A stretch of DNA of 64,000 nt, taken from Gemmatimonadota bacterium (GTDB taxonomy: Bacteria > Gemmatimonadota > Gemmatimonadetes > Longimicrobiales > Gaopeijiaceae). Positions 48,540 to 56,704 of this stretch are shown here, in pieces. The notes under the pieces are model-generated. The model was not told where the DNA came from, made no database searches, and saw nothing but the letters and a program-made list of their open reading frames with translations. Position 1 is the stretch's first letter, and each line of letters opens with the position of its first letter. The stretch lies in NCBI GenBank assembly GCA_028873815.1, contig JAPPNN010000029.1, positions 1 through 64,000 on the forward strand, written 5' to 3'. A program made the translations under genes and the position numbers.

Positions 48540-49166
48540 ATGCTCCCATCCATTCGATTTGCGGCCGGCGCGCAATTCGTCGCGTTGCCGATGATGCTGG
48601 CCCTGCTTGCGACCGCTTCCGCGGCCCGTGCACAGGACCTGGGTCCCGCTGACGGTCACGACATGCCGGGCACCGACATCGAGCGCGTGGCTGTCGGGGA
48701 CGAAGCGCCGCTGTTCACGCTCGAATCCTTCGACCGCGGCCCGGTGACGCTCTCGGACTTCCGGGGGGACAAGAACGTCGTGCTCGTCTTCTACCGGGGC
48801 CACTGGTGACCCTACTGCGCCAGTCAGCTCGTGGAGCTGAGAGCCCTTTTACCCGAAGACCTCAGGGACGAGACCGAAATCGTGACGGTGTCGGTGGACG
48901 ACCAGGAGGGGATGCAGCTGATGATCGACCGTGTGGCCGCCGAAGACGGCATGGCTCCCGACTTCATCATGCTCTCCGACCCGGACCACGCCGTGATCGA
49001 CCGCTACGGCCTGTTCAATGAGAATGCGCCTCCGAACCGGCCTCTGCCGCATCCCGCCACCTACGTGATCGACAAGGAGGGTGTCGTGCGGTACCGCTTC
49101 GTGGAGGTGGACTACCGGGTGCGGCCCACCAACGAGGACATTCTGGAGGTCCTGAAGACGCTGTAG
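48540..49166 (+). CDS. Exported selenocysteine thioredoxin/peroxiredoxin-like protein (TGA = Sec90)
   Basis: Read through the TGA at 48807-48809, the product is 208 aa: signal peptide (to AARAQ), then an AhpC/TSA thioredoxin fold. The TGA replaces the first Cys of the CxxC site: VLVFYRGHW-U-PYCASQL, where relatives have RGxWCPYC. The frame then continues normally to 49166 (RVRPTNEDILEVLKTL). A 6-bp hairpin begins 15 bases after the TGA (48825-48839). ATG 48540 is the best start, but its ribosome site is weak; GTG 48498 is an alternative. A U-P-Y-C centre predicts a fast periplasmic peroxide or disulfide reductase. Confidence 0.83.
48825..48839 (+). promoter_or_regulatory. Candidate bacterial SECIS hairpin, second selenoprotein
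   Basis: CAGCTC (48825-48830) pairs perfectly with GAGCTG (48834-48839) around the loop GTG. The loop begins 21 bases after the TGA and starts with G then U. Stem length, distance and the GU in the loop equal those of 39582-39601, although the surrounding sequences differ. Confidence 0.7.
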
Positions 49167-49437
49167 CGGGTTTGGGGCACCGCCGCGCGAGCCACGGCCC
49201 GCGCGAGCCACTCCCCACGCTAGCCACGCGCCGCGCGAACAGGGGCAGTGGAGGCGGGTGTTCCCGGGTGGTTGGGGGTGTTCAGGGTCGGCGTACGCCC
49301 GAATCGTGGTGCCTGAAGGGGGCGATTTGCGCTCCTGGAACATTTTGTCCCATCCAGACATGTAAACGCACATCCGGTGCGGGTAGCGTGGGTCTCGCTT
49401 GATCGAGTCACGACCCACCGAGAGTGGAGCCGCCCGG

Positions 49438-50037
49438 ATGCCTGAAAGCCACTGCGAAGCGCACAGCCGACCGAAAACACCCTCGGAGCCCCGCGTCGCA
49501 AGGCGCCGCCGCTCGGCGATCCTGACGCTGGTGCTGGTGCCGGCGACGATCGTACTCGCGGCGCTCGCGGTCTCCGACCTGCCCCGCATGGGGCGAATGG
49601 CGGCACGCGTCGACCTGGCCAGGCTGGATGCGGAGTTCCTAGGAGATGACGCGGTCGTCTTCCAGTCCGCGCTGAACGACTGCGGGCCTGCCGCGCTGGC
49701 GAACATGATGCGCGTGGTCGGCGTTGTCGCGCCCTCCACCGACTCGCTCGCGGTGCTCGCGGACATGGGGCCGAGGGGCACGACCGCCCGCGGACTGATT
49801 CGCGCCGCCGGCCGATTCGGCCTGCCGCTTGAGCTGGTACGCCTCACGCCGGCAGACCTGTACCAGGCACGCACACCGTTCATCGCGTGGGTGAACCGCA
49901 ATCACTTCGTGACCGTCATCGGAAGGTCCCCGTCCGGCCGTCTGACCGTGGTGGATCCGACGGCGGGCCGCTACTCGATCAGCGAAGAAGCATTCCAGGA
50001 AATCTGGTCCGGCGAGTCGATCGTGCTCGCCGGATAG
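49438..50037 (+). CDS. Membrane-anchored C39-type peptidase
   Basis: The 199-aa product starts at ATG 49438. A basic N-terminus (RVARRRRS) and one membrane helix (about 28-47) place the C39 domain outside the cytoplasm. The papain-like triad is visible: Cys in SALNDCGPAALANMM, His in NHFVTVIG and Asp in VVDPTAG. C39 peptidases remove leaders after double-glycine sites. Here the domain is free rather than fused to an ABC transporter. It is 65 bases upstream of six peptide genes that carry such sites, so it is probably their processing enzyme. Confidence 0.87.
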   Translation: MPESHCEAHSRPKTPSEPRVARRRRSAILTLVLVPATIVLAALAVSDLPRMGRMAARVDLARLDAEFLGDDAVVFQSALNDCGPAALANMMRVVGVVAPSTDSLAVLADMGPRGTTARGLIRAAGRFGLPLELVRLTPADLYQARTPFIAWVNRNHFVTVIGRSPSGRLTVVDPTAGRYSISEEAFQEIWSGESIVLAG

Positions 50038-50102
50038 TTCCTGGGTCCGGCCGCGGCGAGGGGCGTTGCGGCTTCGTTTACAATCGCTGAAGGAGGAGGA
50101 TG

Positions 50103-50387
50103 ATGAGGAAAGGACGAATGCGGGCAACCGTGTACGCGCTCTGTCTTGCGCTGCTCGCGGGGCAGGGAGCCCAACTGACCGCGGGACTACCGGTCGCCGT
50201 CTTCGAGAACGGGGTACCGACCGCAGTTGAGGGCCGCGGATGGCTAACGTTCAGTATCTGCGTCGGTTGCATAGCGTCGGGCATGTTCCTGGCTGCTACA
50301 GGCGGAATCGTGGCAGCGGCGAGTGTACCCGGTTCGACCATGGCGGCCGCCGGGTGTGTAGCCGCGTGTTACGACGCAATCTTTTGA
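50103..50387 (+). CDS. Cys-rich exported peptide precursor 1
   Basis: The 94-aa product begins at ATG 50103 after AAGGAGG. It has a Sec-type signal region (about 1-28), a short leader ending VEGRG, and a hydrophobic core with C-x2-C-x28-C-x3-C (ICVGC and GCVAAC). No homology is recognised beyond the five paralogs that follow. The four Cys suggest two disulfides in a helical-hairpin peptide. The C39 peptidase upstream probably cuts near the GR position. Confidence 0.8.
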   Translation: MRKGRMRATVYALCLALLAGQGAQLTAGLPVAVFENGVPTAVEGRGWLTFSICVGCIASGMFLAATGGIVAAASVPGSTMAAAGCVAACYDAIF

Positions 50388-50404
50388 TTGACAAGGAGAT
50401 CCGG

Positions 50405-50740
50405 ATGAATAAGACGTTGCACCAACAGATGCACGTCGGCATGGCGATGATGCTGTTCCTTGCCCTTATGAATGGCCTGGTGAACCCGTTTGCGGTCGGA
50501 GGGCGGACGGATACGACCGCTGAAATCACGATAGCGGAGTCCCTTGGCCGGGGGGCAGTTGAGCGAGACGTGATCGCTGTCGAAGGAGGGCAGGCGCTTG
50601 CAAGGACTGGCTGCGTTCTATGCGTTGGAGGCATTCTCTTTGCTGGCGGAGCAAGCATCGTCGGTTTGATAGCAGTGGCGGCGGCGGCTCCCTTTGCCAC
50701 GGGTGCGTGTGCCTTCGTTTGTACGCTGGGATATGGATGA
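50405..50740 (+). CDS. Cys-rich exported peptide precursor 2
   Basis: The 111-aa product starts at ATG 50405, six bases after AAGGAGA. The signal helix (about 10-25) is followed by an acidic leader (TTAEITIAESL) ending AVEGGQ and a core with C-x2-C-x28-C-x3-C (GCVLC and ACAFVC). The GG and the Cys frame match the other copies. It is the longest of the six. The gap to precursor 1 is 17 bases. Confidence 0.8.
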   Translation: MNKTLHQQMHVGMAMMLFLALMNGLVNPFAVGGRTDTTAEITIAESLGRGAVERDVIAVEGGQALARTGCVLCVGGILFAGGASIVGLIAVAAAAPFATGACAFVCTLGYG

Positions 50741-50768
50741 TCATCGATTGCGGTGACAAGAGAGGACA

Positions 50769-51065
50769 ATGGCGCTAATGAAGAACAAGAGTGTTGCAAC
50801 TGTGATACGAGCCTTGACCGTGGTTGCGCTGGCGAACGCCACAAACGCGAGCAGCCGGCGGGCGGAAGTCGTCGTTGACGAAGCCGGAACGGTCGAGGCA
50901 AGCATGGTGTTGGAGGAGGCGGTCGTAGGCGGACAGAACACGGGGCTCAACATTGCGTGTTGGGGATGCATCAGTGTCACTGTGGTTCTGGTGGCAATGG
51001 CGGGGGTTGGAGGTTTCCTGAGCATCGCTTGCGGCTTTGCGTGTGGAAAACTTGCCTTGGCGTAA
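50769..51065 (+). CDS. Cys-rich exported peptide precursor 3
   Basis: The 98-aa product starts at ATG 50769 (50778 possible, as its spacing to AGAGGA is better). The leader is acidic (VVVDEAGTVEASMVLEEA), ends AVVGGQ and is followed by a core with C-x2-C-x20-C-x3-C (ACWGC and ACGFAC). The double glycine is canonical here. Confidence 0.8.
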   Translation: MALMKNKSVATVIRALTVVALANATNASSRRAEVVVDEAGTVEASMVLEEAVVGGQNTGLNIACWGCISVTVVLVAMAGVGGFLSIACGFACGKLALA

Positions 51066-51082
51066 ACAAAAAGGAGGAGATT

Positions 51083-51376
51083 ATGACTAAGCTACGGAGT
51101 AAAGGGCTCACGGGAGCCGTGTTGGTCGCGGTATTGATGGCAGGGTCGCTGCGAGGGCTAGAGGCCGGTGCTGACAACGCCGCGGCGTGGGAAACGCGTT
51201 CAGCGGTGGCGGAGTCGAGTGTGATTGAGGGACAGGGATGGTGGAAGTTCGCTGCATGTATCGGGTGTGTGGCGGGAGCAGTGGTGGGCTCGGTCGTGTC
51301 TGCGGGAACTGGAGCAGCTGCCGCTGCCATCGGCTGTGGAATCTTGTGCGGCATGGCAGCTGCTGATGACTTCTAG
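51083..51376 (+). CDS. Cys-rich exported peptide precursor 4
   Basis: The 97-aa product starts at ATG 51083 behind AAGGAGGAGA, the strongest ribosome site of the set. Signal helix, then AVAESSVIEGQGWW and a core with C-x2-C-x22-C-x3-C (ACIGC and GCGILC). The cleavage motif is G-Q instead of G-G. The core is very Ala/Gly/Val-rich. Confidence 0.8.
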   Translation: MTKLRSKGLTGAVLVAVLMAGSLRGLEAGADNAAAWETRSAVAESSVIEGQGWWKFAACIGCVAGAVVGSVVSAGTGAAAAAIGCGILCGMAAADDF

Positions 51377-51398
51377 GACCTGGTTATGGAGGTGTACC

Positions 51399-51692
51399 AT
51401 GAGGCGGGCAATGAACACGTGGTCCCGCGGCTCTGTCGTCGCGCTAATGTTGGGCATTGGCATCGCTTCGGGTCTGCAGCCCAAGAGTAACATGGCACAA
51501 AGGAACGCAGTTGCCCCGACCGACATGATTGAGCAAGCAGTTGTGGTCGGTGGCCAGGGGCTGAACGGCACGTTGGCGTGCAAGCTGTGTTGGTTGGCTG
51601 TCAGGCGTCTGGTCTTTTCGGCGCCAGGAGGCGCAGTGATTGGCGGTTTAATCTGTACGGCCGCCTGTTCAACGCATATCAGTCCCTTGTAG
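51399..51692 (+). CDS. Cys-rich exported peptide precursor 5
   Basis: The 97-aa product starts at ATG 51399, six bases after GGAGG. Signal helix (about 10-25), then IEQAVVVGGQG and a core with C-x2-C-x21-C-x3-C (ACKLC and ICTAAC). Unlike the others, the core carries three basic residues (CKLC, AVRRL), which may alter its target or membrane behaviour. Confidence 0.8.
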   Translation: MRRAMNTWSRGSVVALMLGIGIASGLQPKSNMAQRNAVAPTDMIEQAVVVGGQGLNGTLACKLCWLAVRRLVFSAPGGAVIGGLICTAACSTHISPL

Positions 51693-51711
51693 AGAAAGGC
51701 AGAAGAAAGTG

Positions 51712-52011
51712 ATGAGGATGAACAGCGGGATTGTTCGAGGTGTCGTAGTGGCGGCTGCCGTGTTGACGCTTGGGACCGCAGGAACATCGAGCACAGGATA
51801 TGGTGTCGGAGCGGACACAGGCCAGGTTGGAGCGTCGGCGTCGGCGCAGGTGACGGATCAGGTTGTGGGAGGTCAGCACGCGGGCGTGGTGGCGCTCGTA
51901 GCTGCATTGCGTTTGTGGTGCGTGCAATGCGTCTTCGGCGCTGCTTCGACCGGGCAGGTCGACCTCGTCGAGTTGGCCCAGTGCGCCATCTTCTGCGACA
52001 TCGCGTTCTAG
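51712..52011 (+). CDS. Cys-rich exported peptide precursor 6
   Basis: The 99-aa product starts at ATG 51712 (GTG 51709 and ATG 51718 are alternatives). Signal helix, Ser/Ala-rich leader, VVGGQHAG and a core with C-x2-C-x17-C-x3-C (WCVQC and QCAIFC). The core loop is the shortest and contains acidic residues (VDLVEL). It closes the array; a strong hairpin follows 16 bases later. Confidence 0.78.
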   Translation: MRMNSGIVRGVVVAAAVLTLGTAGTSSTGYGVGADTGQVGASASAQVTDQVVGGQHAGVVALVAALRLWCVQCVFGAASTGQVDLVELAQCAIFCDIAF

Positions 52012-52026
52012 TCGGACGGAAACAGA

Positions 52027-52061
52027 GGGGGACCCGGGCCGCTGCTTTGTCCGGGTCCCCC
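52027..52061 (+). terminator. Strong intercistronic hairpin after the peptide array
   Basis: GGGGGACCCGG (52027-52037) pairs perfectly with CCGGGTCCCCC (52051-52061) over a 13-base loop. No T-run follows. Placed between six peptide genes and the maturation/transport genes, it probably causes partial termination or shields the upstream mRNA, so that peptides are made in excess over the machinery. Confidence 0.75.
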
Positions 52062-52073
52062 GATGGATGAATC

Positions 52074-52622
52074 ATGGAGGTATCGAAACCATCGATGCGT
52101 GAAAAGAGCGTGGCGTTGGCGGTGGCGGCTTGTGTTGCGGGTATTGCGATTGTGCCGTTGGTCTGGATGGGCAGAACCGGGGATGGTCCGGATGCCCCGC
52201 CCTGGGTGCTACCGCCCGTCTCAGGTTGGCTGGGGGAGTCGGAAACGTGGACATACCGGGCGAACGAGACGGGGTCGACGGCCTTGATCTATGTCGATCG
52301 CAGTTGTGTTCACTGCAAGGCGGAACTGGAGTTGTGGGAGTCGGTGCAGGAAGATCACGCGAACGGGGTAGCGGTCTGGGTGGTGGCCTCCCCGAGGTCG
52401 GTCATGGAGAGAGCGCGGTGGGTTCCCCCATCGCTTCGTGAACGGACGGTACATGACCGCGACGGAAGTGTGGGCCGGGCCCTGGGGGTCAGCGCGGTGC
52501 CCGCGACGTTCTGGATCGACGAGACCGATACGGTCCGGATCCTACGTGTCGGACGCAGCAACAGGAAAATGCTTGCCGACAACATCGCCGCAATGCGCGG
52601 AAAGGGAGAATCGAAGTCATGA
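52074..52622 (+). CDS. Membrane-anchored thioredoxin-like protein
   Basis: The 182-aa product (ATG 52074; ATG 52095 is possible) has one N-terminal membrane helix (about 12-32) and a thioredoxin-like domain with the active site DRSCVHCKAEL and the cis-Pro region VSAVPATFWID. It faces the periplasm and would make, break or shuffle disulfides. Beside six precursors with four conserved Cys each, it is the obvious maturation partner. Its stop overlaps the next gene (ATGA). Confidence 0.85.
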   Translation: MEVSKPSMREKSVALAVAACVAGIAIVPLVWMGRTGDGPDAPPWVLPPVSGWLGESETWTYRANETGSTALIYVDRSCVHCKAELELWESVQEDHANGVAVWVVASPRSVMERARWVPPSLRERTVHDRDGSVGRALGVSAVPATFWIDETDTVRILRVGRSNRKMLADNIAAMRGKGESKS

Positions 52623-53299
52623 GTGGACGAGATGGAGCGCGTGGGGGCGTGCGACGGATTCTGGCAGCGCTGCGGCACTTTCTGAACATGCTCGTGCCCA
52701 GTCTGGATGACATTCGCGAGTATCAACCCATCGCACCCCCGCTGGTCATGGGATGGGTGTTCTCGCTGGTAGCCGCGTTGTCGCTCCGGCCGTTGGTATT
52801 AAGCGCAATGGCAACCCAGGGACCGGAGATTGCGCAGGGGACGCTTCTGGTGCTGGGTGTAGTGGCAGTGATTGCGCCGCTGATTCACCTGCTCAAGGCG
52901 GGGCTTCTGGCAGCCTTGGGATGGGCTGTGCTGGTGCTTGCGAACTCGAAGCGCCGCATCCGTCCGATGCTTTCGGTACTCCTGTACGGGGAAGCGATTC
53001 TGGCGGCGCAGGGAGTGCTCCAGGCGCTCTATCTGCACCTGGTGACGGGCGGAAGCCCGACGTCACCTGCTGATCTGCAGTCCAATTTGGGGTTGGCAGC
53101 CTTCGTACCTGCCACGAGCCCGGGTCTGCTGGCGGTCGCCCAGAGTTTCTCGTTGGGCCATTTCCTGTGGTTCGGATTCCTCGTGATTGCACTGCGCCGG
53201 TGCGATGGTCCCGAGCGTCGACCGTCCCTCGGACTCGCACTGTTCTTCTGGGGCGTCATGGTGGCCTTTTCTGCGGCACGCGCATGGGTCACATTGTAA
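52619..53299 (+). CDS. Polytopic membrane protein (YIP1-like)
   Basis: The 226-aa product starts at ATG 52619 inside the previous stop. Five hydrophobic segments are visible between about 40 and 225 (for example VMGWVFSLVAALSL, GTLLVLGVVAVIAPLI). The arrangement is like Yip1-family membrane proteins, but the match is weak. In this locus it could give immunity or assist export. The gap to the ATPase gene is 43 bases. Confidence 0.7.
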   Translation: MSGRDGARGGVRRILAALRHFLNMLVPSLDDIREYQPIAPPLVMGWVFSLVAALSLRPLVLSAMATQGPEIAQGTLLVLGVVAVIAPLIHLLKAGLLAALGWAVLVLANSKRRIRPMLSVLLYGEAILAAQGVLQALYLHLVTGGSPTSPADLQSNLGLAAFVPATSPGLLAVAQSFSLGHFLWFGFLVIALRRCDGPERRPSLGLALFFWGVMVAFSAARAWVTL

Positions 53300-53342
53300 T
53301 GCGGGCGAGAGAGAGGGTGGGCGGGCGGCGTTGGGGGGGCAA

Positions 53343-54059
53343 ATGGCGGGAGTGAGGCTGCGGGGATTCAGCGTCCGGTACTCCAACTTCTTCCTGGAAC
53401 CGATGGATCTGACCGTCGATCCGGGAGAACGCGTTGCGTTGGTTGGAGCGAACGGGGCCGGGAAGAGCACGACGCTCAAGGCGATTGCGGGTCGGCTGCG
53501 GGACTACGAGGGCAGGGTGGAACTCTGCGGAGACGACATCCGACCCCAGTTGCCGGAGATCAGGACGCGTGTTGGGTTTCTTCCCGAAAAGCTGCTCGGA
53601 TTCGGTTGGATGACCATCGATGAGCACCTGCGGTTCCTCTCGACCTTCTTCCCCACCTGGGACCGCGACTACGAGCAAGAGCTCCTGACTCGCCTGGATC
53701 TTCCGGGGGCGTCGAAGGTGGGCACGCTTTCCAGGGGGATGTCGGTCAAGCTGTCGCTGGTAACTGCCGAGGCCCACCGGCCACCGGTCCTCATCCTCGA
53801 CGAGCCCACCACGGCCATCGATCCGGTCATGCGCCGAGAGCTGCTTGGGATCATTGGTGATTGCGCACCCCGGGGCGGCGATCGCCTCGTCCTCTTTTCC
53901 AGCCATATCCTCGAAGATGTGGAGGTCATCGCCGAGCGGGTCGTCCTGATGAGGGTGGGACAGATCCTTGAGGACGTGACCACGAAGGAGCTTCAGGAAC
54001 GCGATCCCGGTTCGCCTCTCTCCCAAGTCCTCCTTTCAACATTGGAGTCCGATGACTAG
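53343..54059 (+). CDS. ABC transporter ATP-binding protein
   Basis: The 238-aa product starts at ATG 53343. Walker A GANGAGKST, signature LSRGM, Walker B VLILDEP and H-loop SSH are all present, so the ATPase should be active. The type resembles CcmA/NatA-like exporters used for bacteriocin immunity or peptide export. It overlaps the permease gene by eight bases. It lacks a C39 domain, which instead is encoded separately at 49438. Confidence 0.94.
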   Translation: MAGVRLRGFSVRYSNFFLEPMDLTVDPGERVALVGANGAGKSTTLKAIAGRLRDYEGRVELCGDDIRPQLPEIRTRVGFLPEKLLGFGWMTIDEHLRFLSTFFPTWDRDYEQELLTRLDLPGASKVGTLSRGMSVKLSLVTAEAHRPPVLILDEPTTAIDPVMRRELLGIIGDCAPRGGDRLVLFSSHILEDVEVIAERVVLMRVGQILEDVTTKELQERDPGSPLSQVLLSTLESDD

Positions 54060-54753
54060 TCAAGCCCTTTGGACGCTGGTGGGACTTGAGTTTCTACGGC
54101 CCCGCCGGACCTTCGCGCGTGGTTGGCTTTTCCTCCTGGCAATCGTGATCCTTGTGGTTGCGATAGGGTCTGACACGCAAGCGGCACTAGCGTTGACCTC
54201 GGTCGGTGCCGCGTTTGCCACTCAAATCCCCGCTAATACCCTCCATGACAGGCTTACAGGCAGTCTGGAAGCGGTTACCACACTCCCCGTGAGCGCCGGG
54301 ACGCTCGCAGCAGCCCGCCTTGCGGCAGTTGGCCTTATGACGGCGATGGGCGCGGTTCCGATCGCTGTCGCCGGTGGCATTGCAGGCCCCGCCATGCTGG
54401 AGGACTCCAGCCTGATCCACATAGTGATGGTCTTCTTTGTGGCGGCCTGGATCTTGCTCTCGGTGTTGTCGGCGGTGTCCCTCGCGGTCCTGCTCCGCTT
54501 CAGGACCCAGTCGATAGTGTCCCATGGCCTGATTGTCGGGTTTGTGACACTAGTGGGCGTGGGCTACCTCTACGATCGGCTCTTCGGGAGCCCATTGCGG
54601 TTGATCCGGGCCGTGATGACCAGCGATCACACCCTGGCGATCGCCATTGGCAGCGCCTTGGTTGGCTCGGCAGTGGTCCTGACGGCCTCATTCCTGCTCA
54701 CCCGCAGGGGATTCGAGATCTACCAGCCGGAACCGGACGCGATGGACTGGTAG
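54052..54753 (+). CDS. ABC transporter permease
   Basis: The 233-aa product has six membrane helices (for example GWLFLLAIVILVVAIGS and SIVSHGLIVGFVTLVGVGYLY). Its layout resembles ABC-2-type permeases. It starts inside the ATPase gene, so the two form one transporter. It is the last gene of the peptide locus. The export role versus self-protection cannot be told from sequence. Confidence 0.88.
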   Translation: MTSQALWTLVGLEFLRPRRTFARGWLFLLAIVILVVAIGSDTQAALALTSVGAAFATQIPANTLHDRLTGSLEAVTTLPVSAGTLAAARLAAVGLMTAMGAVPIAVAGGIAGPAMLEDSSLIHIVMVFFVAAWILLSVLSAVSLAVLLRFRTQSIVSHGLIVGFVTLVGVGYLYDRLFGSPLRLIRAVMTSDHTLAIAIGSALVGSAVVLTASFLLTRRGFEIYQPEPDAMDW

Positions 54754-54913
54754 GACGGCGCTCGTCCGCTTCGGTGGCCGCGGGAATTCGACCGCTCGGC
54801 GGCACTTGCCCGGGCACCTGCACGCCAACACGGGCGAGCGCTCACGGGTCTTCAGGGTTGCGGGGTGGGTTATTGTACTCCCGGAAACACGGCGCCTCCA
54901 ACCTGTGGAATCC

Positions 54914-56704
54914 ATGTCCCGAGGTACCACGAGTCTGGTCGAATCCCTCCTGTCAAGGGTGTCATTCGCAGAGCGCTCGGAAGGATGGAGCCTGATCGAG
55001 CGGTTTGCGGTACTCGTGCGCGAATCCGGGTCGCCGGACGAGCGCGCGGCCGCGCACTACATCGTGTCGCGCCTTGAGAACGCGGGAGTCCCTCACGACG
55101 TCTACGAGCCGGAACTCTATCTCTCCATACCGAAGGGTGCCTCGGTCGCATTTGCGGGCGTGGACTTCGCCGGCAAGCCGCCGTCGTTTGCGGCGTCAAC
55201 CCCGAAGAGGGGGCTGTCGGCGCCTGCCGTCCACATCCCCGCGAACCCGTCCAGCGACGCCGCCGATCTGTTCAAGTCGCCGCACGGTCCACTCCCCGAC
55301 GACATCGCGGGCAAGATCGTGGTGACCGAGGGAATGCCCATGCCCGTGTCGGTGGCGCGTTTCGAAGCGGCGGGCGCGGTCGGCCAGGTGTACATCAATC
55401 CGGGAAGCCGCGTCCACTGGGGAATCTGCACGACCGTGTGGGGCACGCCGGGCGAGTCCCAACTCGGGCTGCGTCCCACGACGCCGGTGGCGGCCATCGA
55501 TCGCTGGGACGGCGACAAGCTGATTGCGGCCATCGCGGATGGCCTGGACAGGATCACCGTCCACACCGACCTGGAGGAGGGGTGGTACCCCTGCCAGCTT
55601 CCGGTCGCGCGTATCGACGGCCAGGAGGAGGATTTCGTCCTCGCGCACGGGCACTATGATTCGTGGGACGTCGGAATCGGCGACAATGCGGTGGGCGACG
55701 CCACGCTGCTCGAGCTGGCGCAGATCTTCCACGAACACCGGGAGGACCTGAGGCGGTCGCTGAGGGTGGCCTGGTGGCCGGCGCACTCTACGGGCCGCTA
55801 TGGCGGATCGACCTGGTTCGCCGACCAGTTCGCTCTGGAGTTGTCGCAGCGATGCGTGGCCGCCGTCAACATCGACTCGCCAGGCTGCTGGGGCGCGACC
55901 GAATACGACGCCGTACCCTGGATGGCGGAGGCCGGCAAAGTCTGCCGCTCCTCGATCCTGTCGGTGGCGGGTGTCGAGCCGACCCGCCAGCGGCCCCTCC
56001 GGGCCGGGGACTATTCGTTCGACCAGATCGGGCTTACCTCCTTCTTCATGCTGCTCTCCAACATCCCCCAGGAGGAGCGGGACCGGCTGGGCTTCTACCC
56101 CGTGGGTGGCTGCGGGGGCAACATCGCGTGGCATACGGAGAAGGACCGGATCGAGGTGGCGGACCGCGCCAACCTGGAGCGCGACCTCCGGGTCTATCTG
56201 ACGGCCATCGCCAGGTTTCTGGAGGACGAAGTCCTGCCCCTGGACTTCCGCGAGACCGCGGCCGAGTTGGGAGATGCTCTCGAGGCGTACGAAGGGACGA
56301 TCGACAAGGACCTCGGCAAGGTGTTCAACCTGGTGCCGGTCAGAGAGGCCTACGATGAACTGGTGGAGCGGCTGAACGCCTTCTACGACTCGATCGAAGA
56401 GGGCAATGTCGACCCTGACGTGGCAAACGAGGCGCTGCTCAGACTGGCACGGATCCTGGTTCCCATAGGGTACGCGCAAGGGCCCCGGTTCGAGCACGAT
56501 CCGGCGACGCCACGCGTACCCATTCCCAGGCTTGCCAGGGTTCCCGACCTCGCCGCGATGCGCGAAGAGGACCCGGAGATGTTCCGGTTCGTCGTGACGG
56601 AGCTGCGGCGCCGGTCCAACCAGGTCGTTGCCGGCTTCACCGAGGCGTCATGGCTGCTCAAGCGGTTGGCCGCGCCCCTCGTTCCCCATCTGTCCGTCGG
56701 CTGA
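54914..56704 (+). CDS. M28-family metallopeptidase with PA domain
   Basis: The 596-aa product (ATG 54914, weak ribosome site; the open frame extends to 54806) has a PA-like insert (about 90-190, KGASVAFAGVDF) and the M28 zinc domain: AHGHYDSWDVGIGDNAVGDATLLELA, then acidic ligands and H in AWHTEKDRIEV. A helical C-terminal part follows. There is no signal peptide, so it is probably cytoplasmic. It may cleave aminoacyl or small peptide substrates. Its end overlaps the racemase gene by 57 bases in antisense. Confidence 0.87.
   Translation: MSRGTTSLVESLLSRVSFAERSEGWSLIERFAVLVRESGSPDERAAAHYIVSRLENAGVPHDVYEPELYLSIPKGASVAFAGVDFAGKPPSFAASTPKRGLSAPAVHIPANPSSDAADLFKSPHGPLPDDIAGKIVVTEGMPMPVSVARFEAAGAVGQVYINPGSRVHWGICTTVWGTPGESQLGLRPTTPVAAIDRWDGDKLIAAIADGLDRITVHTDLEEGWYPCQLPVARIDGQEEDFVLAHGHYDSWDVGIGDNAVGDATLLELAQIFHEHREDLRRSLRVAWWPAHSTGRYGGSTWFADQFALELSQRCVAAVNIDSPGCWGATEYDAVPWMAEAGKVCRSSILSVAGVEPTRQRPLRAGDYSFDQIGLTSFFMLLSNIPQEERDRLGFYPVGGCGGNIAWHTEKDRIEVADRANLERDLRVYLTAIARFLEDEVLPLDFRETAAELGDALEAYEGTIDKDLGKVFNLVPVREAYDELVERLNAFYDSIEEGNVDPDVANEALLRLARILVPIGYAQGPRFEHDPATPRVPIPRLARVPDLAAMREEDPEMFRFVVTELRRRSNQVVAGFTEASWLLKRLAAPLVPHLSVG

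Follow-up and report, generated by a model that had tools for sequence, protein, structure and literature searches.

Gallocin A consists of two hairpin peptides with mature lengths of 42 and 60 residues, for which both the disulfides and the thioredoxin-like protein BlpT are needed, and it has been placed with brochocin C, thermophilin 13 and ABP-118 in a proposed disulfide-hairpin subgroup of the class IIb bacteriocins (PMC10100652; these and the following accounts of known systems follow the accessible sections of the cited reports). Some thermophilin 13 strains have a separate C39-like protein that is thought to be inactive (PMC10059821). YknWXYZ protects Bacillus from SDP, a 42-residue disulfide peptide toxin (PMC4887032), and the clusters of leaderless and circular bacteriocins are reported to contain Yip1 proteins, which may serve in transport or immunity (PMC11580447, PMC8659200). 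A standalone periplasmic C39 peptidase, FapD, is needed for Fap secretion in Pseudomonas (PMC5557850). Here we describe a cassette of 11 genes, all on the + strand at positions 49438-54753 of a 64,000-nucleotide stretch (the window) of contig JAPPNN010000029.1 from a Gemmatimonadota bacterium (assembly GCA_028873815.1), in which six precursors of cysteine-rich peptides are accompanied by five partner genes. The best reading of the cassette is a two-peptide, disulfide-stapled helical-hairpin bacteriocin system, which by analogy would act like gallocin A and mature by another route; a bacteriocin-type role in interbacterial antagonism is, in our judgment, probable. The features are listed below, with lengths in amino acids (aa) or codons and with the Shine-Dalgarno-like stretch that stands before each precursor.

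49438..50037, + strand: standalone C39 cysteine peptidase, 199 aa (PF03412, E 8.8e-22)
50103..50387, + strand: precursor 1 (alpha), 94 codons, AGGAGG; signal helix, leader, V-E-G-R site, core C-x2-C-x28-C-x3-C with PGST loop
50405..50740, + strand: precursor 2 (beta), 111 codons, AGGAG; V-E-G-G site, core C-x2-C-x28-C-x3-C
50778..51065 (possible start 50769), + strand: precursor 3 (gamma), 95 (or 98) codons, GAGGA; V-V-G-G site, C-x2-C-x20-C-x3-C
51083..51376, + strand: precursor 4 (gamma), 97 codons, AGGAGG; I-E-G-Q site, C-x2-C-x22-C-x3-C
51399..51692, + strand: precursor 5 (gamma), 97 codons, GGAGG; V-V-G-G site, C-x2-C-x21-C-x3-C
51712..52011, + strand: precursor 6 (gamma), 99 (or 100) codons, AAGG; V-V-G-G site, C-x2-C-x17-C-x3-C
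52027..52061, + strand: strong stem-loop (13 bp, no T run) separating the precursors from the downstream partner genes
52074..52622, + strand: thioredoxin/redoxin-like protein with a C-V-H-C active site (Pfam Redoxin, E 5.4e-6)
52619..53299, + strand: Yip1/YknW-like polytopic membrane protein (PF04893, E 0.004, under the cut-off)
53343..54059, + strand: ABC transporter ATPase (PF00005, E 4.2e-27)
54052..54753, + strand: ABC-2 type permease (PF13346, E 1e-4, under the cut-off; orthologues score better)

By analogy, gallocin A is the nearest described system in working principle, closer than halocin C8. The likeness involves two adjacent peptides of similar (here predicted) mature size with few charged residues, alpha-helical hairpins in the models (here clear for beta and weak for alpha, and with an intramolecular disulfide in gallocin A), a thioredoxin-like gene in the locus, found here in 17/17 loci, and a leader ending in a glycine motif that is cut by a C39 enzyme, a cut predicted from sequence for the present precursors. 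Unlike the gallocin A subgroup, the peptides described here carry four cysteines as a rule and a Sec-type signal helix, the C39 peptidase is separate and probably membrane-tethered rather than part of the exporter, and the cassettes combine a Yip1/ABC module and up to six peptides in Gemmatimonadota hosts. The class II double-glycine leader family PF10439 matched none of the six window precursors (E <= 1) and none of 18 beta and 16 alpha precursors (E <= 0.1); with this match absent and the peptidase encoded apart from the exporter, membership of class IIb is not claimed. Halocin C8 is a secreted, hydrophobic, cysteine-rich peptide with CxxC and CxxxC elements; it exceeds the present peptides in cysteine number and is set free from a fusion with its immunity protein. 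A preliminary description of the window had seen halocin C8 in the cysteine frame, a resemblance that fails by profile: TIGR04449 has no match in the window's own genome (E <= 1) or among 34 precursors compared with NCBIfam (E <= 0.1).

The partner genes recall other systems. YknWXYZ likewise pairs a Yip1-family membrane protein with an ABC transporter, whereas the permease here is of the ABC-2 type and no membrane-fusion protein was seen in the window cassette. The leaderless and circular clusters similarly show Yip1 and ABC components beside small peptides; leaderless bacteriocins have no leader, unlike the present precursors, and circular clusters are marked, in the accessible sections of the reports, by a DUF95 protein that is not among the five partners here. 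The likeness to FapD lies in a standalone C39 peptidase and in its periplasmic action, which is predicted for the present enzyme. A haloarchaeal precursor-protease was not used as a comparison, the protease being a serine protease in the accessible sections of its report (PMC12893001). No title or abstract describing this cassette was found in a literature search that mostly did not extend to subscription journals.

The six precursors are real, fast-evolving genes. An N-terminal hydrophobic helix is present on each, and together with the coordinates and Shine-Dalgarno-like stretches this confirms the preliminary description of six genes of 94-111 codons, each with a ribosome site and a signal helix. 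The cysteine frame given there, C-x2-C-x(17-28)-C-x3-C, is found again in the spacings 2/28/3, 2/28/3, 2/20/3, 2/22/3, 2/21/3 and 2/17/3, and the C39, thioredoxin-like, polytopic membrane and ABC proteins placed around the precursors were recovered by Pfam matches, with the Yip1-like protein and the permease under the cut-off. The proposed leader end V-x-G-(G/Q/R) needs one amendment: five precursors read V-x-G-(G/R) and the fourth reads I-E-G-Q. When stop-to-stop frames of 60-200 codons were scanned for C-x2-C-x(15-32)-C-x3-C near the frame end, exactly six frames of the window carried the motif, namely the six precursors. Three motif frames in total arose in 20 windows simulated with a second-order Markov model (none in 18 windows, one in one and two in one). 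A profile of the six precursors matched only those six in the own genome at E <= 1. Codon comparison with the orthologues of locus L007 gave ratios of nonsynonymous to synonymous substitution rates (dN/dS) of 0.24-0.69, below 1 in all six, and dN values that exceed the one for the C39 gene by factors of about 2.5 to 9. Precursor 5 evolves fastest, with 37% identity to its L007 orthologue, and its leader part alone reached a dN/dS value of 1.05.

The association of precursors and partners was followed across the phylum. A peptidase scan of a genome contig collection (84,980 species), which detects close relatives only, returned six loci, five labeled Gemmatimonadetes/Gemmatimonadota and one labeled Longimicrobiales, an order of Gemmatimonadota, and precursors adjoin the C39 gene in each. 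Profiles were built from the window and these six loci (34 precursors and 7 peptidases) and searched against 395 genomes of the phylum. Precursor matches with E < 1e-6 were found in 13 genomes, all 13 with an adjoining standalone C39 gene; 7 of these genomes are sources of the profiles and 6 are independent. At E <= 0.01 the matches extended to 38 genomes, and the 25 with values of 6.5e-5 to 0.01 were excluded from the 13, two of them (G070 and G201) being real as shown by their C39. The C39 profile matched 20 genomes at E <= 1e-15, with a standalone gene in 18; the two long frames, of 723 aa in G048 and 819 aa in G143, were dropped as presumed C39-ABC transporters. Eleven of the 18 standalone loci lie outside the profile set, and precursor-type open reading frames adjoin C39 in all eleven as judged by eye. 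The order C39, precursors, thioredoxin-like protein, Yip1-like protein, ABC ATPase and permease is kept in 17/17 loci with four family labels; L006, whose contig ends in the array, was left out of this count, and the contig of L072 begins inside C39. Only six of the 13 genomes being independent, the weight of the argument lies with the 11/11 further C39 loci and the 17/17 partner count. A Yip1-like gene was found in 13 of 121 genomes of the family, of which twelve are among the genomes known to carry the cassette and the thirteenth is G411. Within the phylum, these results answer the preliminary description's call for a precursor-profile search for co-occurring C39, thioredoxin and ABC genes. 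Its claim that several secreted peptides with paired cysteines belong to one system with a dedicated peptidase, a thioredoxin-like protein and an ABC transporter is supported by the co-occurrence in 13/13 genomes for C39 and 17/17 loci for all five partners.

Comparison of the loci points to one alpha and one beta peptide as the conserved core and to the sixfold array as an expansion. One alpha and one beta are carried by 18/18 loci (the alpha of L063 being interrupted and that of L065 being assigned by position and motif, outside the alignment), and 9 of the 11 distant loci (L064-L072) have these two precursors only. The earlier view of a multi-peptide system therefore stands for several peptides per locus, whereas six is not the basic unit. 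Alpha peptides resemble precursor 1, with a PGS-type loop and C-x2-C-x28..32-C-x3-C; beta peptides resemble precursor 2, with a G-x-S/T-V-x-G-L-like stretch and x28 or x29 in the same position. All four cysteines are kept in 16/16 aligned alpha and 18/18 aligned beta peptides, and the unaligned L065 alpha has four as well. The gamma peptides, 23 in total (17 with four core cysteines and 6 with two), occur in the window's genus and L062, where they produce arrays of four to six precursors in the genus (six in L007, at least four in L006, whose contig ends inside precursor 4, four in L008 and five each in L009, L010 and L011) and one array of five in L062. Three gamma paralogues of L062 share 88-93% of 59 leader residues and 38-49% of the core, a pattern expected of a varied product behind a constant leader. 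The automatic cutting site was wrong for a gamma of L008, the L009, L063 and L067 beta, the fifth peptide of L010 and the L067 and L072 alpha, for which cysteine counts were taken from alignments or by eye.

The predicted products are hydrophobic hairpins. The grand average of hydropathy (GRAVY) of the cores is mostly 0.8-1.8, lower in two gammas, and their net charge is mostly -2 to +2 (range -4 to +5). AlphaFold2 modeled the beta peptide as a helical hairpin with helices at 56-81 and 85-94/96-110 and a predicted local distance difference test (pLDDT) value of about 90 in the core, with cysteine distances that could not be read. The six two-cysteine gammas, from L010 and L011, have one cysteine per helix at a spacing of 18-21, which falls inside the C2-C3 spacing (16-22) of the four-cysteine gammas of the genus and is consistent with nested C1-C4 and C2-C3 bonds. 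No credible family for the peptides was found in Pfam, NCBIfam or PADLOC, the isolated matches being to unrelated families, and a PDB sequence search with beta gave only a potassium-channel fragment at E 0.8.

Two further observations were made in L063. On its reverse strand, about 2640-2930 from its 5' end, the alpha frame is apparently interrupted between leader and core, and the beta and partner genes keep open frames. Inside the same cassette (L063:7036-7606, - strand) lie two secreted peptides of 73-75 aa with five cysteines each and no glycine motif, which are 84% identical in their first 37 residues and 36% identical thereafter.

The C39 peptidase of the window scores 77.8 bits against a PF03412 cut-off of 22, with catalytic residues Q76, C82, H156 and D173; the Q and C are conserved in 16/16 homologues that reach these positions, and the H and D in 17/17. 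Its solved relatives are the peptidase domains of C39-ABC transporters, the closest in the PDB being those of PCAT/ComA (best E 2.1e-13). In all 17 loci the enzyme occupies its own short frame of up to 286 codons (123 in L072, where it is cut by the contig), and no C39 domain was matched in the window ABC protein by Pfam scan. The N-terminus has positive charges followed by a hydrophobic segment with a mean hydropathy of at least 1.65 in 15/17 loci, the exceptions being L072, cut by its contig, and L068, which has no such segment in the frame. These features suggest that the peptidase is probably membrane-tethered and periplasmic rather than fused to the transporter, and this separation would make the maturation route unlike that of ordinary double-glycine bacteriocins. 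With an anchor on the enzyme and signal helices on the substrates, the two would come together on the periplasmic side of the inner membrane. C39 leaders have a hydrophobic residue at -4 and G at -2 (PMC10885120); in the present precursors the best-conserved residue is the G at -2 of the proposed cut, and V, I or L is usual at -4. FilB, a pilus-associated C39 protein, gave a weak NCBIfam match to the window enzyme (E 8e-4). A plasmid search yielded 41 records with C39-domain matches, none covering 80% of the query, and 20 of 25 were annotated as peptide-exporting ABC transporters among the matches listed, while two plasmid regions that were inspected carried no annotation; 18 pattern matches in viral contigs included none related to C39.

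The window thioredoxin-like protein scores 26.7 bits against a cut-off of 26.6 and has an N-terminal hydrophobic segment by eye. Its orthologues keep C-x2-C in 17/17 loci, as C-x-H-C in 8 and C-P-Y-C in 3, and we take these two site types to resemble those of DsbA/DsbG-type proteins more than ResA-type ones. The family NF052650 (YknW_fam) matches 11 of 17 Yip1-like orthologues at E <= 0.1 (best E 6.4e-12) and PF04893 matches 4 of 17; the window protein itself reaches E 0.0025 and 17.3 bits against a curated cut-off of 110, which makes it by sequence a distant YknW relative and not an equivalog. PF13346 matches 10 of 17 permease orthologues at E <= 0.1 (best E 4.1e-9). A plasmid search with the Yip1-like and thioredoxin-like proteins gave no matches. 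In the 62-base gap after the last precursor, with a folding energy of -32.4 kcal/mol, the stem-loop at 52027-52061 may be an attenuator or mRNA-stability element, and a strong stem of differing sequence lies just 3' of the last precursor in about 14 of 17 loci, as judged by eye without a shuffle control. Such an element after the precursors would suit production of the peptides in larger amounts than the machinery. Promoter and terminator scans stayed near the shuffle level (1 vs 0.8 and 4 vs 4.1).

The cassette is patchily distributed, being present in 7 of 23 genomes of the genus, and lies between a redoxin gene and an M28 peptidase gene. Its site was inspected in 15 of the 16 genus genomes that lack it. 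The site is empty in five (L108, L110, L114, L115 and L116), where the two flanking genes are direct neighbors and their matches lie about 170-340 bases apart, and four (L103, L105, L106 and L107) carry another ABC-bearing cassette there, at the site corresponding to window 49167-54916. That cassette, possibly another peptide system, encodes a propeller-like protein with weak matches only, a different ABC ATPase (28-33% identity) accompanied by a putative permease, and one or two cysteine-containing secreted proteins, mostly of about 118-133 aa, one of which was scanned and gave no clear family. In L112 and L113 the redoxin-M28 site holds a propeller-like gene, three secreted cysteine-rich peptides of 75-79 aa and a residual piece of the C39 N-terminus (E 3e-5 and 5e-5); these genes apparently took the place of the hairpin cassette. 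The remaining four sites (L104, L109, L111 and L117) were uninformative. Such turnover at a single site, with gain, loss and replacement, is in keeping with a competitive trait. L062 and L063 share the cassette flanks; for L064-L072 no convincing match to them was found in the stretches compared. The upstream redoxin gene, which is peroxiredoxin-like (window 48540-49166), has a TGA within its reading frame (FYRGHW-TGA-PYC) that probably occupies the catalytic position, and this TGA is present in all 17 loci in which the motif was located (24 examined). A tRNA-Sec (79.7 bits) and an above-cut-off SelB match were found in the own genome; the redoxin is a probable selenoprotein, which would be split by gene callers.

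In the favored bacteriocin reading, the precursors would be exported via Sec by their N-terminal signal helix, and the tethered C39, facing outward from the inner membrane, would cut after V-x-G-x. The thioredoxin-like protein, also tethered in this reading, may help to form the bonds between the CxxC (first helix) and the CxxxC (second helix), producing hydrophobic helical hairpins of about 35-55 residues. Alpha and beta probably act jointly as a membrane-active two-peptide bacteriocin, and the gammas, most abundant in the window's genus, may add to the repertoire or provide immunity by resembling the effectors. The Yip1/YknW-like protein, ABC ATPase and permease would clear the peptides from the producer's membrane as self-immunity, or release them, and the stem-loop after the last precursor would hold the downstream genes at a lower level. 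Only tentatively do we extend this to a new class of diderm bacteriocin with Sec insertion, periplasmic cutting and stapling, Yip1-ABC extraction, an alpha/beta pore and gammas that tune the targets.

Several observations weigh against the bacteriocin reading or parts of it. No regulator or classic immunity gene was seen between C39 and the permease in the window, and since no outer-membrane exit component was seen in that interval either, release from a diderm cell is unexplained. The -1 residue of the cutting site is relaxed (G, R, Q, T, A, S, N and others) in comparison with the reported GG, GA and GS, and thioredoxin-like proteins can reduce disulfides as well. The spacing in the two-cysteine gammas would fit some C1-C3 or C2-C4 pairs equally well, and the loss of cysteines may be a single event because these peptides occur in only two related genomes. 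The alpha hairpin was weakly predicted by AlphaFold2 (pLDDT 64, cysteine distances unreadable), and Foldseek, run with the beta model only, gave zero matches in the PDB. No positive selection was seen, the whole-gene dN/dS of the six precursors against close relatives staying below 1. In 3 of 18 loci (G322, G370 and G169) the precursor profile failed to hit the right location, and G394, the genome of L006, gave no Yip1 match, its contig ending inside the array.

The same evidence bears on three other explanations. The mature peptides might be signals within a lineage, matured and exported by C39 and the ABC transporter like Gram-positive double-glycine pheromones: C39 enzymes generally process pheromones as well as bacteriocins, as an accessible section of PMC7018657 also states for PCAT, all precursors are small with signal helices, and multiple peptides could make a strain-specific code. 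We nevertheless consider signaling improbable, given that the C39-permease interval of the window is fully occupied and leaves no room for a kinase, regulator or receptor, that very hydrophobic hairpins would be poor diffusible signals, and that a conserved pair is unexpected for a signal. To a role as subunits of a surface or membrane structure (fiber, coat or channel), with C39 acting like FapD, we likewise give little credence. The FapD precedent (PMC5557850), the weak FilB match and the suitability of several related subunits for assembly speak for it; however, Pfam scans of the 11 cassette proteins found no amyloid-repeat or outer-membrane barrel/FapF-type pore family and gave matches to C39, redoxin, Yip1-like, ABC and ABC-2 families only, the accessible sections of PMC5557850 mention neither an ABC/Yip1 module nor a thioredoxin for Fap, and the patchy presence and replaced site within the genus suit a competitive trait better. 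It is also conceivable that alpha and beta are the sole effectors and that some or all gammas are mimic immunity peptides, as proposed for GIP of gallocin A, which is modeled as a toxin-like hairpin and is necessary and sufficient for immunity in the accessible sections of PMC10100652. The gammas vary most in number and sequence, and those with two cysteines keep the general pattern with fewer possible bonds. This division of roles is unlikely, as the gammas share the signal helix and type of cutting motif with alpha and beta, and they cannot be a general immunity factor since the 9 of 11 distant loci without a gamma keep all partners.

If the bacteriocin reading is right, the cassette would be a defined peptide weapon system for the Gemmatimonadota, a widespread but rarely cultured phylum, and would extend the disulfide-hairpin two-peptide subgroup beyond Gram-positive hosts. 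Sec export followed by the action of a membrane-tethered C39 peptidase and an oxidase would be unlike the textbook coupling of cleavage and export, and in the tentative diderm class glycine-motif maturation would take place after export, not during it. Periplasmic C39 peptidases are called a class yet to be characterized in the accessible sections of PMC5557850, and a C39 enzyme with obvious neighboring substrates makes this question directly testable, with alpha and beta as simple two-gene targets for expression.

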